Origin: Candidatus Cloacimonadota bacterium
GTDB lineage: Bacteria > Cloacimonadota > Cloacimonadia > Cloacimonadales > TCS61
Direction: 5' to 3'
Assembly: GCA_030596265.1 (NCBI GenBank)
Contig: JAUVKM010000003.1
Span: forward strand, 1 to 22,789
Length of the DNA stretch: 22,789 bases
Under the pieces are notes generated by a model that was given only the letters and a program-made list of their open reading frames with translations, was not told where the DNA came from and did no database searches. A program made the position numbers and the translations under genes. How positions within the stretch are numbered: position 1 is the stretch's first letter; each line of letters starts with the position of its first letter. Below are positions 2,834 to 14,786 of this stretch, one piece after another.

Positions 2834-2853
2834 ATATTAATAAGGAGTTTATC

Positions 2854-5121
2854 ATGAAAGTTGAAAAAAAACATTTATTAATCTGTTTAGTAATTTTATT
2901 TTTGTTACCCTGTATAGTTTATGCTCAACAGGTTCTGATCTGGGATAATGACAATAACTCTGATTTTCTTGATCCTGAAGGAACCGGTAATGTGGGTTGT
3001 GAATACAAAATACAACAGGCATTAACTGCAAATGGAATAACTTTCACCACATTATCCACACTTCCCGGAGATCTTTCCGGTTATGATGTTGTTTTCGTGA
3101 CTTTAGGCATCTATTGCTTGGGCTGAGGAACTACTCCACCTGGTGTCGTTGGCACCACTCAACAACAAACTTTAATTAATTTTTTAGACGGTGGCGGTTC
3201 TCTTTACATTGAGGGATCAGATGTGGGTTTCAATCATTATACAACTACATTTTTTGATTATCTGGGAACAAATTACATCAGCAATGGAACTACAAATGGA
3301 ATTCATAATATTGTAGGAGTAGACAATACTTTTGCATCAGGAGATAATTTTGCTTTTCAATATAATGAAGACCCAGATTATATGGTAGATGTGCTTAATA
3401 CAGATGAAGGGGTTCTTTATTTCACCTGTCAGGATGATATTGGACGTTCTGTGTATTATGATGAAGGTTCATACCGAGTTATCTGTACTTCTTCCATTTT
3501 TGGACCTATGTCAGATGCTGATGGAACAAATACAAAAGCAGATCTTATGGCACGGTACTTCTCGTTCTTATCCAATGATTCTTATCCGCATATCTGGGCT
3601 TCTACAGATGAATTGAATTTTGGAACTCAATACTTGAACTATCCGGCAACAATGATATTCAATATTCGAAATTTAGGTTATGTTAACTTAAATATTTCTT
3701 CATTAGAGATCATTGGAGAAGGATTTACTTACACTGGACCAACTGCATTTGATCTGGGTTGGGGAGAACAAACTGAACTTGAGATTACATTTACATCCGA
3801 AAACATTGGGACATTTAATGCTACGCTATCTATCCAGAGCAATGATCCGGAACTGAACCCATTGTTGATAGACCTGAATGGAGAATGTGTCTCTCCTCCT
3901 GAAATTGAATTATCTGCTGATTTTTTCGTTGTAGAACTTGAGCCTGATTCTATTGTTGAAGAAGTATTAACACTTAGTAATGTTGGAGATAGTGATCTTT
4001 CTTATGTGGTCGATCTTAATGATTTATCATTGCCATTAGAGAGATCGGGTGGTCCGGATGATTATGGTAATCTGTGGATAGACAGCAATGAACCGGATGG
4101 ACCTATTTACAATTGGTGTGATATTTCCATGTTGGGAACACTTGTAACTTTTACGCATAATGATGTGGGAACGGAATTGATGCCAATCGGTTTTAACTTC
4201 AATTTCTATGGTTCAAATTATTCTGAATTCCGTATCAATCCAAATGGCTGGATAGGTTTTGGAAATGATTGGATAGATTATCATAATTATGAACTTCCTA
4301 GATTGAATGCTCCTCGCCCTGCTATTTTTGGTTTCTGGGATGACCTAGATCCGCTTCAAGGTGGAAATGTATATTATTATAGTACTCCCGATAGTCTGAT
4401 TATCTTGTTTGATAATGTTATTCATTATCCGGGAATATATAACGGGACTTATGATTTTCAGATGATTCTTTATGCAAATGGACATATTTTATTCCAATAT
4501 CGCCAAGTTAGTGGAGACCTCGATACTGCAACTATTGGAATTCAAAACGAAGACGCAAGTGATGCTCTTCAGGTTGTTTATAATGCTCTTTATGTTGAGA
4601 ATGAATTAGCTGTTCTTTTTTATTCTGGCCCAGCCTGGTTGGAGATCAGCAATTGTGCAGGTACGATCCCGGCAGATTCTTCTGATGAGATCACTTTCTC
4701 TTTTGATGCAACCAATATGCTTATTGGAACTTATCAAGCAGATGCAGTTATTGTCAGTAATGATCCCGATGAGCCGGAGATCATAATTCCTATCACAATG
4801 ATAATTGAGTTTGTATCTACGGAGGAAGATTTACCTTCTATTCAGAATAAACTTATTGGAAATTATCCAAATCCGTTTAACCCAACGACGACTATTTCGT
4901 TTTCAACCGCAGAAAGTACGGAAGATACGGAACTTATAATCTATAATCTCAAAGGACAGAAAGTGAAACAGTTTGTCAACAGTCAGCTATCAGCTGGTCA
5001 GCATTTTGTGATTTGGGATGGAAAAAATGACAAAGGTAAATCCGTTACTTCCGGGATTTATTTCTACAAGCTCAAAGCAGGTGTTTTTGAGAAAACCAAT
5101 AAAATGGTTTTGATGAAATGA
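2854..5121 (+). CDS. Candidate secreted selenoprotein, CxxU motif (Sec at residue 91), ASH-like and sorting domains
   Basis: The start is ATG 2854 (AAGGAG at 2842-2847), which gives a clean signal peptide (1-24, ending VYA/QQV). The frame meets UGA at 3124-3126, then stays open to UGA 5119-5121: 755 residues if the first UGA is read as selenocysteine. Domains: a Rossmann-like domain of about 230 residues (VLIWDNDNN ... YDVVFVTLGIYCLG-U-G ... FLDGGGSLYIEGSD), perhaps of the class I glutamine-amidotransferase type; an ASH/HYDIN-like Ig domain (about 245-390); a beta-rich domain (about 395-590); a second Ig-like segment; and the sorting domain (about 665-755). Residues 88-91 are C-L-G-U, with C49 conserved in the paralogue at 12984-14786. 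The same gene uses UGA as its true stop, right after the conserved KMVLMK end. Alternatives are an ancestral nonsense mutation shared with the paralogue, or ordinary readthrough. I think Sec insertion is the best explanation because of the hairpin just downstream. Confidence 0.82.
3124..3157 (+). promoter_or_regulatory. Candidate bacterial SECIS: UGA plus downstream hairpin
   Basis: UGA (3124-3126) is followed 14 nt later by TGGTGTC-GTT-GGCACCA (3141-3157): seven base pairs, one of them G-U, with a three-base loop starting with G. The loop begins 21 nt after the UGA. This fits the published bacterial SECIS pattern of a small apical loop with G in its first two positions, 16-37 nt from the UGA. 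The stem lies inside the coding sequence (residues PGVVGT). Confidence 0.72.
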
Positions 5122-12131: not shown

Positions 12132-12956
12132 ATGGATCAAGCAATTAATAAATTAATAAGTATAGGATTAAATCTTTATGAGGCAAAAGCTTATAGTGTT
12201 CTACTGAAAAGCGGGATCAATAGTGCTTCTAAAATATCAAAGATCGGAAAGATCCCTCAAGGTAGAATTTACAATATTCTGGAAAGTCTTATTCAGAAAG
12301 GATTTTGCTCTATTATACAGGGTTCTGTAAAAAAATTCAAAGCAGTTGATCCTAAAGTGGTTATGGACAGCATAATTCAAGAAAGAAGGAAAAATTTTGA
12401 AGAACAAGAAAAAAATATACTGAATGTGGCAGAACAATTAAAGAAAGATTTTGAATCTCAAGATGACATCTATTCTACTTTGGATTACATACATGTTTAT
12501 ACAACAAAACCAAGTATGATAAATAAGTTTAACGAGATTGTGCAAAACTGCAAAGAAACACACAGAACTTTTACAAAACCACCCTTTGCTACAAAAAGTG
12601 ATCCGTCAATACTCTCCCCTATAGCTGTAGATGCTATCGAGAGAGGAGTAAAAATAAAATCTATCTATGAAATTGAAAAAAATAATTTGGATAGCTTCAT
12701 AAACTGGATTAAGCATTTTGATAGTGCAAAGGAGGAGATTCGCATTACAGAGAAATTACCATTGAAATTGGCGATTGCAGATAATAATGTCGTAATGTTT
12801 ACTCTTCATAATAAAATTGATAACCAAAGCAATTTTACCTCAGTTGTTATTGAGCATTCAAATATTACCGACGCTCTGATTGAATTATTTGATATCTATT
12901 GGGAAAGATCTATGACCATTGAGGAATTCCTGGATAGAAAAGCATCTTATTTATAA
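12132..12956 (+). CDS. TrmB-family transcriptional regulator
   Basis: A 274-residue protein starting at ATG 12132 with an excellent Shine-Dalgarno (AAAAGGAGG, 12116-12124). Residues about 1-75 form the TrmB-type winged helix: LISIGLNLYEAKAYSVLLKS, then ASKISKIGKIPQGRIYNILE, then LIQKGFCSIIQGSVKKFKAV. A helical stretch (about 85-115, ERRKNFEEQEKNIL) probably gives the dimer coiled coil. The C-terminal half looks like the TrmB effector region, which in characterised members binds sugars, but it lacks an obvious maltose-binding signature. It has no membrane segment, so it is a cytosolic DNA-binding protein. It ends 27 nt before the candidate selenoprotein gene at 12984 on the same strand and probably shares its transcript, suggesting it controls that gene. 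The family is commonest in archaea but also occurs in bacteria. Confidence 0.87.
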   Translation: MDQAINKLISIGLNLYEAKAYSVLLKSGINSASKISKIGKIPQGRIYNILESLIQKGFCSIIQGSVKKFKAVDPKVVMDSIIQERRKNFEEQEKNILNVAEQLKKDFESQDDIYSTLDYIHVYTTKPSMINKFNEIVQNCKETHRTFTKPPFATKSDPSILSPIAVDAIERGVKIKSIYEIEKNNLDSFINWIKHFDSAKEEIRITEKLPLKLAIADNNVVMFTLHNKIDNQSNFTSVVIEHSNITDALIELFDIYWERSMTIEEFLDRKASYL

Positions 12957-12983: not shown

Positions 12984-14786
12984 ATGAAAAAAATATTAGT
13001 AGTATTTATAGCATACCTGGCTCTTTTTCCCATTAATCTGCCTGCGCAAACCACATATTGGGAAGAAACTTTCACATCACCGCCCCCGGGCTGGTCACTC
13101 GATTCCAATTGGTATTTTTCAAATTGGCTTAGGGCTTTGAGGTTAGACAGTTATCCACCACTCAATAATTATGATGTTTCAGCTATTTCGCCAGTATTTT
13201 CTTTACCTGATAATCCCGTAGATCTCATCATTACTCAATATATAAAAACTCGTACAACAGCGGTTGATGAAGTCGTAACGATTGGAGTAATAATTGACGG
13301 TATTCCACAGGAACTCTGGCAATACGATTTGACTGGAGAAGATTGGGGAGTCGAGGGTGGGGAAGATATTGTTTTCTCTCTCTCGGATTTCAGCGGTGAG
13401 GATGTTCAACTTCAGTTTCGCAGTTACGGCTCAAGCATTTCCAACTTCAATAGCTGGACAATTTACAATATATTAGTTGCGGATTCTTTAGATAATGATC
13501 TGGCTGTTACAGAAGTTGCAGGACCAACGTATCTTGATCAAAACCAACAGGGAACGTGGACCGTTACAGTAAAAAATCCGGGGCTTCTCACCCAAGATGA
13601 TTATACTGTCAGATTTTTCAAACACGATGGTTTTGAAATCGGTTCGATTCAATCTACTATTCTACTTGAACCTAATGAAACAACCGACTTTAATTTTAGC
13701 TGGACACCTTCTGAAATAGAAAGCACAGTACTTTATGGACAGGTCATTCTGGGAACAGATGAATTTGCCGACAATAATATAAAAAATCATTATCTGCGTG
13801 TAAATTCCGAAACACAATTAAATATTCTTATTTTGGATAGTGATAATGATTCATATTATTTTCCTCCGGAGACAGGAAATTATATTGGATGTGAAGGAGG
13901 CATCGTAGAAACTCTGGAATTAAATGGAATTGGATCAACGGTTGTTTCTACTCTACCGACAAATTTATCAAATTATGATATCGTATTTGTGGAAGTTGGT
14001 CTGTGGTGTTTAGGTTGAGGTAATGAGCCTCCCGGAACCGTGAGTTCCAGTGATCAACAAAAACTAATTGATTATCTCGATGATGGTGGTTCAGTATATA
14101 TGGAAGGAGCAGATGTAGCATTTAGTCATTATACAGATCCGTTTTTCAATTATTTCGGAACCGGATTCATTGATACCGGTGCGGCAGGAGAAATACTCTC
14201 TTTAACCTGTACAGATGATACTTTTACCTCAGGATTAATTTACGATTATTGTGGAGGATCTGATGCCCATCATAAAATTGATGAATTAAGTGCAACTACA
14301 GGAACTGCTTTTCTGGAATCTGAAGATCAGAAAGTTCGAGCTGTATTCAATCTGACCGAGACATACAGAACAATTTGTTCAGCTCCCATAATAGGGGCTT
14401 TCGGCAATGGTGCTGGATTGAATATGAGAGCTTTCTTAATGAGACAGTACGTAGATTTCCTCACAGGAGAATCAACATCTATTGAAGAGAACAATGTAGT
14501 TCAGGTTACACCAAAACTTGAACAAAATTATCCCAATCCTTTCAATCCAACCACAATGATTTCTTTTTCTGTAACACAAACGTCTTCATTTGTGAATCTC
14601 GAAATATTCAATCTAAAAGGACAGAAAGTAAAACAACTCGTAAATGAACAACTTCCTGCAGGTCAACATTCTGTTGTCTGGAACGGCAAGGATGATAGTA
14701 ACAAATCGGTGAGTTCTGGAATCTATTTCTACAAAATAAAATCAGGCAAATATACTTCCACGAAGAAAATGATCCTTATGAAATAG
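12984..14786 (+). CDS. Second candidate secreted selenoprotein, CxxU motif (Sec at residue 345)
   Basis: A 600-residue protein if UGA 14016-14018 is read as Sec. ATG 12984 follows AAGGAG (12972-12977); the signal peptide is about 1-22 (ending LPAQ/TTYW). Domains: a jelly-roll, choice-of-anchor-like domain (about 25-170), a CARDB-type Ig domain (about 172-275), the UGA-containing Rossmann-like domain (about 277-500), and the sorting domain (about 510-600, ending KMILMK). The UGA domain aligns without gaps around the UGA to residues 25-230 of the protein at 2854-5121: YDIVFVEVGLWCLG-U-GNEPPG against YDVVFVTLGIYCLG-U-GTTPPG, then DDGGSVYMEGAD against DGGGSLYIEGSD. C342-L-G-U345 is the CxxU motif and C303 is also conserved. 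Only the UGA domain and the end are shared; the front half is different, so the module has been shuffled between proteins. The stop is UAG. A TrmB regulator gene precedes it. Confidence 0.82.
14016..14049 (+). promoter_or_regulatory. Candidate bacterial SECIS of the second UGA gene
   Basis: UGA (14016-14018) is followed by GGAAC-CGTGA-GTTCC (14034-14048), a perfect 5-bp stem, or six columns with one C-A mismatch around a GTG loop. The loop begins 20 nt after the UGA and has G at its first or second position. The stem occupies exactly the columns of the hairpin at 3142-3156. Confidence 0.68.

Follow-up and report, generated by a model that had tools for sequence, protein, structure and literature searches.

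The window analysed here is a 22,789-nucleotide (nt) stretch of a Candidatus Cloacimonadota bacterium (assembly GCA_030596265.1, contig JAUVKM010000003.1, positions 1 to 22,789 of the forward strand), and it carries two genes, gene 1 and gene 2, in which an in-frame UGA is very probably read as selenocysteine (Sec; U in motifs). Features are collected in Table 1, including the hairpins that resemble a selenocysteine insertion sequence (SECIS). A first-pass annotation, made from the sequence without database searches, had singled out gene 1 as a candidate selenoprotein gene. We found that gene 1 is, as described there, a single frame from an ATG at 2854 to a TGA at 5119-5121, with the TGA at 3124-3126 as its sole interruption and a Shine-Dalgarno-like sequence ahead of the ATG. 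The 664 codons given for the part behind the UGA stood, but the stub ahead of it has 90 residues, not 91. That gene 1 itself stops at UGA was also correct. The only other one of 13 examined open reading frames (ORFs) in the window to do so is the frameshifted ORF 1081-2436, so UGA is a rare stop in the window. Gene callers were expected to split gene 1, and databases do list a 632-residue tail from the same contig (P0003).

Table 1. Features of the two selenoprotein genes and their surroundings, and tRNA-Sec genes of altered anticodon in other genomes
Feature	Position or locus	Strand	Basis
Selenoprotein gene 1, 755 residues, Sec at 91	2854..5121	+	open frame
Shine-Dalgarno-like AAGGAG	2842..2847	+	sequence
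Predicted signal peptide, residues 1-24	2854..2925	+	by inspection of sequence
Sec domain of gene 1, GATase1/ThuA-like predicted fold, CxxU	2926..3579	+	domain comparison, alignment, structure model
UGA very likely read as selenocysteine, C-L-G-U-G	3124..3126	+	frame, family alignment
SECIS-like hairpin UGGUGUC-GUU-GGCACCA, loop 21 nt after UGA	3141..3157	+	RNA folding, covariation
HYDIN/choice-of-anchor-D Ig-like domain, residues 250-340	3601..3873	+	Pfam, NCBIfam
C-terminal secretion (type IX secretion system [T9SS] type A) sorting domain, residues 671-752	4864..5109	+	Pfam, NCBIfam
TrmB-family regulator gene	12132..12956	+	immediately precedes gene 2
Selenoprotein gene 2, 600 residues, Sec at 345	12984..14786	+	open frame
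Sec domain of gene 2	13815..14474	+	domain comparison, alignment
UGA very likely read as selenocysteine, W-C-L-G-U-G	14016..14018	+	frame, family alignment
SECIS-like hairpin GGAAC-CGUGA-GUUCC, loop 20 nt after UGA	14034..14048	+	RNA folding, covariation
C-terminal secretion sorting domain of gene 2, residues 516-597	14529..14774	+	Pfam, NCBIfam
tRNA-Sec with anticodon GCA, nine Cloacimonadota genomes	L032, L141, L175, L189, L193-L195, L197, L198		

The earlier observation is right but understated: gene 2, with the same motif, had gone unnoticed. Its TGA at 14016-14018 (motif WCLG-UGA-G) is its only in-frame TGA. The two genes have in common a 217-residue domain (42% identity), here called the Sec domain, in which both UGAs align, in C-L-G-UGA-G in each. 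TIGR04183, the T9SS C-terminal sorting domain, scores over cut-off in both proteins, and gene 2 has a CARDB domain (residues 171-249) ahead of the UGA. The domain of gene 1 had not been recognised among described families, and we found that no Pfam or NCBIfam model covers the UGA-bearing region in either protein up to E = 1. The domain profile matched no PDB sequence below E 0.04, and an Rfam search of the window gave no match.

We found the UGA-bearing domain in 57 genes: the 2 of the window, 50 in Cloacimonadota (44 of 124 genomes), and 5 in Bacteroidota (3 genomes). The 55 relatives outside the window, from 47 genomes, have one UGA each, always at the same column; two or three copies are present in 7 of these 47 genomes. 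A first scan of a species-genome collection yielded 10 loci, with TGA at the column in 9 and TGC in 1. When the 124 Cloacimonadota genomes were searched with a profile, 52 matches spanning the column were strong (E <= 4.1e-51); 50 of them (44 genomes) have one TGA and no other stop, and 2 (genomes G003 and G087) have TGC. The totals, window and Bacteroidota included, are 57 genes with UGA and 2 with UGC. A gene represented by several loci was counted once, and the 57 UGA genes make up 55 distinct 48-mers (33 + 17 + 5). A sample of 395 Bacteroidota genomes had the UGA form in G010 only; G008 and G009 came from the species-genome scan. These last two each carry two tandem copies (L008:1235-4966 and L009:354-4086), the first of which has C-x-x-U-S, not C-x-x-U-G. 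A sequencing error, which had been named as a possible refutation, is untenable because 57 genes carry the same codon at one column.

The first-pass annotation had looked to homologues with Cys or U at residue 91. In the members with the CxxU loop that were read, the Sec column holds UGA or Cys, never Trp or Gly, and the first Cys of CxxU is kept in all aligned DNA rows reading TGA or TGC. The protein databases contain 27 tails that start past the UGA (P0003 and 26 others). The search with the gene 1 protein gave one full-length protein, P0007, with Cys at the Sec position, and that with gene 2 gave five stubs whose last residues are WCLG (P0036-P0040). Cys stands at this position in the full-length proteins P0007, P0031-P0035, and P0041-P0045; P0045 is without the first Cys of the pair. 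A tree, which contains one G010 gene twice and another gene both as DNA and as P0042, requires at least two changes between UGA and Cys-codon rows, one at P0031-P0033 and another where the G003 and G087 groups stand. These two groups do not form one clade on the tree, which is midpoint rooted and has several long branches.

Weaker profile matches were considered as further selenoproteins and rejected. In the 24 fetched matches covering the region, the loop is missing or a different residue occupies the column; none has UGA, and the codons at the Sec column are AAC, CGT, GAT, GTG, and TCA. The listings of the unfetched matches show no TGA and one TAG. Two partial loci, L093 and L094, start past the Sec column at contig edges and are uninformative on the codon, and weak matches without the loop were dropped before the counts. 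Loci L095-L121, from Cloacimonadota and Bacteroidota, are long ORFs with the same domain in which the CxxU loop is absent or other residues stand there.

In a 2026 review, the bacterial SECIS model has a loop of 3-9 nt, a stem of 4-16 bp, a distance of 16-37 nt from the UGA, a G among the first two loop positions, and a free energy of <= -7.5 kcal/mol (PMC13188914). Both window hairpins have this geometry, with stems of 7 and 5 bp and loops 20-21 nt past the UGA. The 57-nt folds have energies of -10.9 (gene 1) and -11.5 (gene 2) kcal/mol, and the hairpins alone have -7.8 and -4.1. In 41 of 50 distinct Cloacimonadota sequences, one or other of two registers gives a perfect stem of 5 bp, versus 6.0 expected from synonymous shuffles judged alike. 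All 33 sequences of the larger register group keep both central pairs intact by way of compensating changes, and these are the two best covarying of all pairs tested between -40 and +79. In an independent count on the same 33 sequences, none of 500 shuffles was as high for pairing, double changes, or covariation.

We also found Sec machinery in the relatives' genomes. In the genomes of the 10 first-scan loci, selB was over cut-off in 8, selA in 8, and tRNA-Sec in 9, and none is without a Sec gene (selA of G009 is a contig-edge piece). Genome G006, where both window genes have relatives (79% and 87% DNA identity), has selA, selB, and tRNA-Sec(UCA), and its SelD gene contains a single in-frame TGA. 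Among the 124 Cloacimonadota genomes, selA or tRNA-Sec is present in 42 of 44 with the UGA form versus 25 of the 80 others, uncorrected for kinship; any selA match at E <= 0.001 was counted (61 genomes, 58 over cut-off). In each of the three Bacteroidota genomes, selC is found 63-132 nt downstream of the family gene (of its second copy where there is a tandem pair) in the same orientation, and selA comes next; selB follows in two of them, and the contig of the third ends inside selA. In Cloacimonadota, selC is nearby on the same contig in 3 of 44 genomes (G084, G067, and G004). The selenoprotein may be one of the important clients of the Sec machinery in these genomes, because the gene is directly upstream of the Sec genes in the three Bacteroidota and is found in two or three copies in some genomes.

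UGA or Cys at one column, the covarying hairpin, the Sec genes in relatives, and the linkage to selC, selA, and selB in some of them together bear out the candidate selenoprotein and argue strongly that UGA is decoded as selenocysteine; genes 1 and 2 almost certainly belong to a new family of predicted secreted selenoproteins. The UGAs at 3124 and 14016 would be decoded by tRNA-Sec and SelB at the SECIS-type hairpin starting about 15 nt downstream. Several observations weigh against this reading. The gene 2 hairpin alone is weak (-4.1 kcal/mol) and only its 57-nt fold reaches the -7.5 limit, 9 of the 50 Cloacimonadota sequences are without a perfect stem, and the perfect stem is present in none of the five Bacteroidota genes, which fold into other irregular hairpins outside the SECIS geometry. 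Pairs with any double change and further pair types, both coarser measures, stay within the shuffle range, sorting registers by better pairing flatters the pairing percentage of the 33 sequences, and the shuffles leave the relatedness of the sequences in place. The second register group (17 sequences) is weaker, and its best scoring pair is outside the stem. Sec genes were seen in the relatives' genomes only. G123 and G074, 2 of the 44 UGA-form Cloacimonadota, show neither selA nor tRNA-Sec, G002 is without selB and tRNA-Sec over cut-off, and G004 is without selA; incomplete assemblies would explain these four cases.

Gene callers treat the UGA as a stop, and if it is a genuine one, in a decayed gene or through a sequencing error, the product has 90 residues. 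We give this next to no credence, since the 57 genes have frames open on both sides of the codon and the RNA stem downstream covaries. A general code change or a suppressor, by which UGA would be read as another amino acid, agrees with the rarity of UGA as a stop in the window, where one of its two instances is the frameshifted ORF. Gene 1 itself terminates at UGA at the conserved C terminus, however, the listed selA matches have no in-frame UGA, Cys is the sole replacement at the column, and a SECIS-type hairpin would be superfluous, all of which makes such a change highly improbable. We also think it very unlikely that the codon is a selenium-controlled switch, with the part ahead of the UGA itself a product when selenium is scarce: the separate CARDB module of gene 2 would suit such a product, but the stub of gene 1 is a mere piece of the Sec domain.

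The two UGC genes raise the question of the codon itself. Of 62 genomes with a tRNA-Sec match over cut-off, 61 were kept; G050 was dropped (47.5 bits, tRNA-Ser by ARAGORN). All 61 are Cloacimonadota, and the anticodon is UCA only in 52, GCA only in 8, and both in 1. The nine GCA genes score 53-62 bits versus a gathering score of 47; only the G003 gene was aligned to the model. This gene (62 bits by Rfam) lies 37 nt ahead of a selA match, and ARAGORN labels it and the G087 gene tRNA-Cys (L032:1501-1597 and L141:850-942). Family-gene codon and tRNA-Sec anticodon were both read in 41 genomes; the 2 with UGC both have GCA, and the 39 with UGA all have UCA (p 0.0012). Both UGC members are thus in genomes whose tRNA-Sec has anticodon GCA, and Sec is probably encoded by cysteine codons there. 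The hairpin past the UGC is strong in G003 (z -2.8 versus synonymous shuffles) and not clearly kept in G087 (z -0.8).

SelD was readable at 21 of 24 loci (G006, G106, and G067 were left out). In the 8 readable GCA genomes, its Sec-site codon is TGC or TGT in 7 and TGA in G065, and a SECIS-like stem of 7 bp follows at 16-20 nt in 5 of the 7 TGC/TGT genes, those of G003 and G087 included (p 0.00 to 0.06 by shuffling); the stem is absent in G063 and G107. In the 13 readable UCA genomes, a stem at 16-20 nt is present in 9 of 9 TGA genes and in none of 4 Cys genes, and SelD of G112, a UCA genome with a Cys codon, has a stem at 30 nt. SelD codon and tRNA-Sec anticodon are associated (p 0.024). These data make it probable that, within Cloacimonadota, the Sec codon moved from UGA to UGC/UGU, so that local "Cys homologues" would be selenoproteins, with G065 as an intermediate. 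G065 has two tRNA-Sec genes, GCA and UCA (L198 and L170), and its SelD uses UGA and its FdhA UGC. FdhA was considered as a second witness for recoding and set aside. It has TGC or TGT in 8 of 8 GCA genomes that carry it, yet TGC also in the UCA genome G004, and therefore does not discriminate; in the UCA genome G096 it has TGA.

The Sec domain is predicted to have a GATase1/ThuA-like fold. The best structure model was made from 13 sequences (predicted local distance difference test [pLDDT] 87, predicted template modeling score 0.88) and matches GATase1-like and ThuA-like proteins, GH42 enzymes, and IFT52. In its topology, the CxxU follows strand 55-61, a D-x-D-N follows strand 3-7, and Glu96 is in strand 92-97; the CxxU loop, the D-x-D-N, and the Glu at 96 are invariant in the 13-row alignment. 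No row has a Cys near the end of strand 92-97, and the CxxU is predicted to sit away from the GATase-class nucleophile, whose elbow was placed by topology only. Folds of the GATase1/ThuA type have their active site at the C-terminal edge of the parallel sheet. By analogy with this fold class, CxxU, D-x-D-N, and Glu96 may form one site, and at that edge the Cys and Sec would form a selenenylsulfide.

If Sec is inserted, the CxxU pair is rather likely to be a redox center. The predicted signal peptide and the type-IX-like sorting tail would put the protein at the cell surface, where the selenenylsulfide would open and close in thiol-disulfide or peroxide chemistry outside the cell. Two points count against this picture: the five structure models disagree, with mean pLDDT from 87 to 55 (86 to 55 for the other four), and the redox role rests on the CxxU motif plus topology. 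A tentative alternative, again given Sec, is a structural or a metal- or metalloid-binding role for the pair. The 2026 review speaks for metals in general, with predicted ligand binding in about 20% of families and metals in about 70% of those (PMC13188914), and the invariant D-x-D-N and Glu lie by topology at the same sheet edge. No feature here points to a metal, however, and CxxU is a classical redox pair whose first Cys is kept in all TGA and TGC rows.

Nearest to gene 2 among the fetched loci is L006 (G006), with 87-88% DNA identity that extends over the preceding TrmB-family regulator; the stretch in L006 upstream of the gene 2 relative is 88% identical to the window's regulator gene. 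This gene is a possible regulator of selenoprotein gene 2. The loci nearest to gene 1 include L001 (84% DNA identity) and the partial L093 (87%). Elsewhere in the window, at 1081-2789, an FG-GAP/PKD protein of secreted type ends at a TGA at 2434, and an ORF with a sorting tail (2433-2789) follows in another frame; this is a frameshift, by decay or assembly error.

These genes point to an unlisted family of selenoproteins, widespread in uncultured bacteria and predicted to be extracellular, with a fold unusual for redox selenoproteins, whose database proteins are mostly broken halves of selenoproteins. If the codon did move, proteins filed as "Cys homologues" in GCA genomes would be selenoproteins, and the codon-anticodon switch inside the family would offer a natural series (UGA, both tRNAs, and UGC) for tracing the evolution of recoded codons. 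The 2026 review counts 119 prokaryotic selenoprotein families and subfamilies; no entry of its Table 1, compared by description, fits by name, domain id, or motif, and the words Cloacimon-, Bacteroid-, and secreted are absent from its text (PMC13188914). Among the matches listed in the open-licence literature, the family is undescribed.

Sense-codon Sec is known in kind. Mukai et al. 2016, as retold in later papers (PMC10778597, PMC8124441), found it with UGU in Aeromonas salmonicida, and PMC5330540 has them also describing a Cloacimonetes-type tRNA-Sec; their set may include the GCA tRNAs reported here. The two cases are alike in a tRNA-Sec with changed anticodon and a Cys codon at the Sec site. 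Unlike that of A. salmonicida, the present, probable one involves UGC as well as UGU, Cloacimonadota, and a new family together with SelD.

The family resembles the CxxU selenoproteins glycine reductase A and the SelW-like and AhpD-like proteins in its UGA, bacterial SECIS-type hairpin, CxxU motif, and Cys homologues. Most CxxU-type selenoproteins have, by the same review, a thioredoxin-like fold (PMC13188914), whereas the fold predicted here is GATase1/ThuA-like, on a secreted, tail-sorted protein. The non-Sec relatives L095-L121 have the same domain by profile, unlike the family in the CxxU loop. Proteins of known structure with GATase1/ThuA-like folds, the GH42 beta-galactosidase domain, and the IFT52 N-terminal domain (3soz, 2gk3, 3rht, 5e9a, 1t0b, and 5fmr) are 11-15% identical to the Sec domain. 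The GxUxG motif of NF004836, the CTP synthase C-terminal region-related selenoprotein, is at the nucleophile position. Two sources describe NF004836 as a glutamine amidotransferase with this motif (PMC13188914, PMC12013277). Our family is like it in being a selenoprotein on a glutamine-amidotransferase-type fold and unlike it in having CxxU after an earlier strand; NF004836 was not among the NCBIfam matches.
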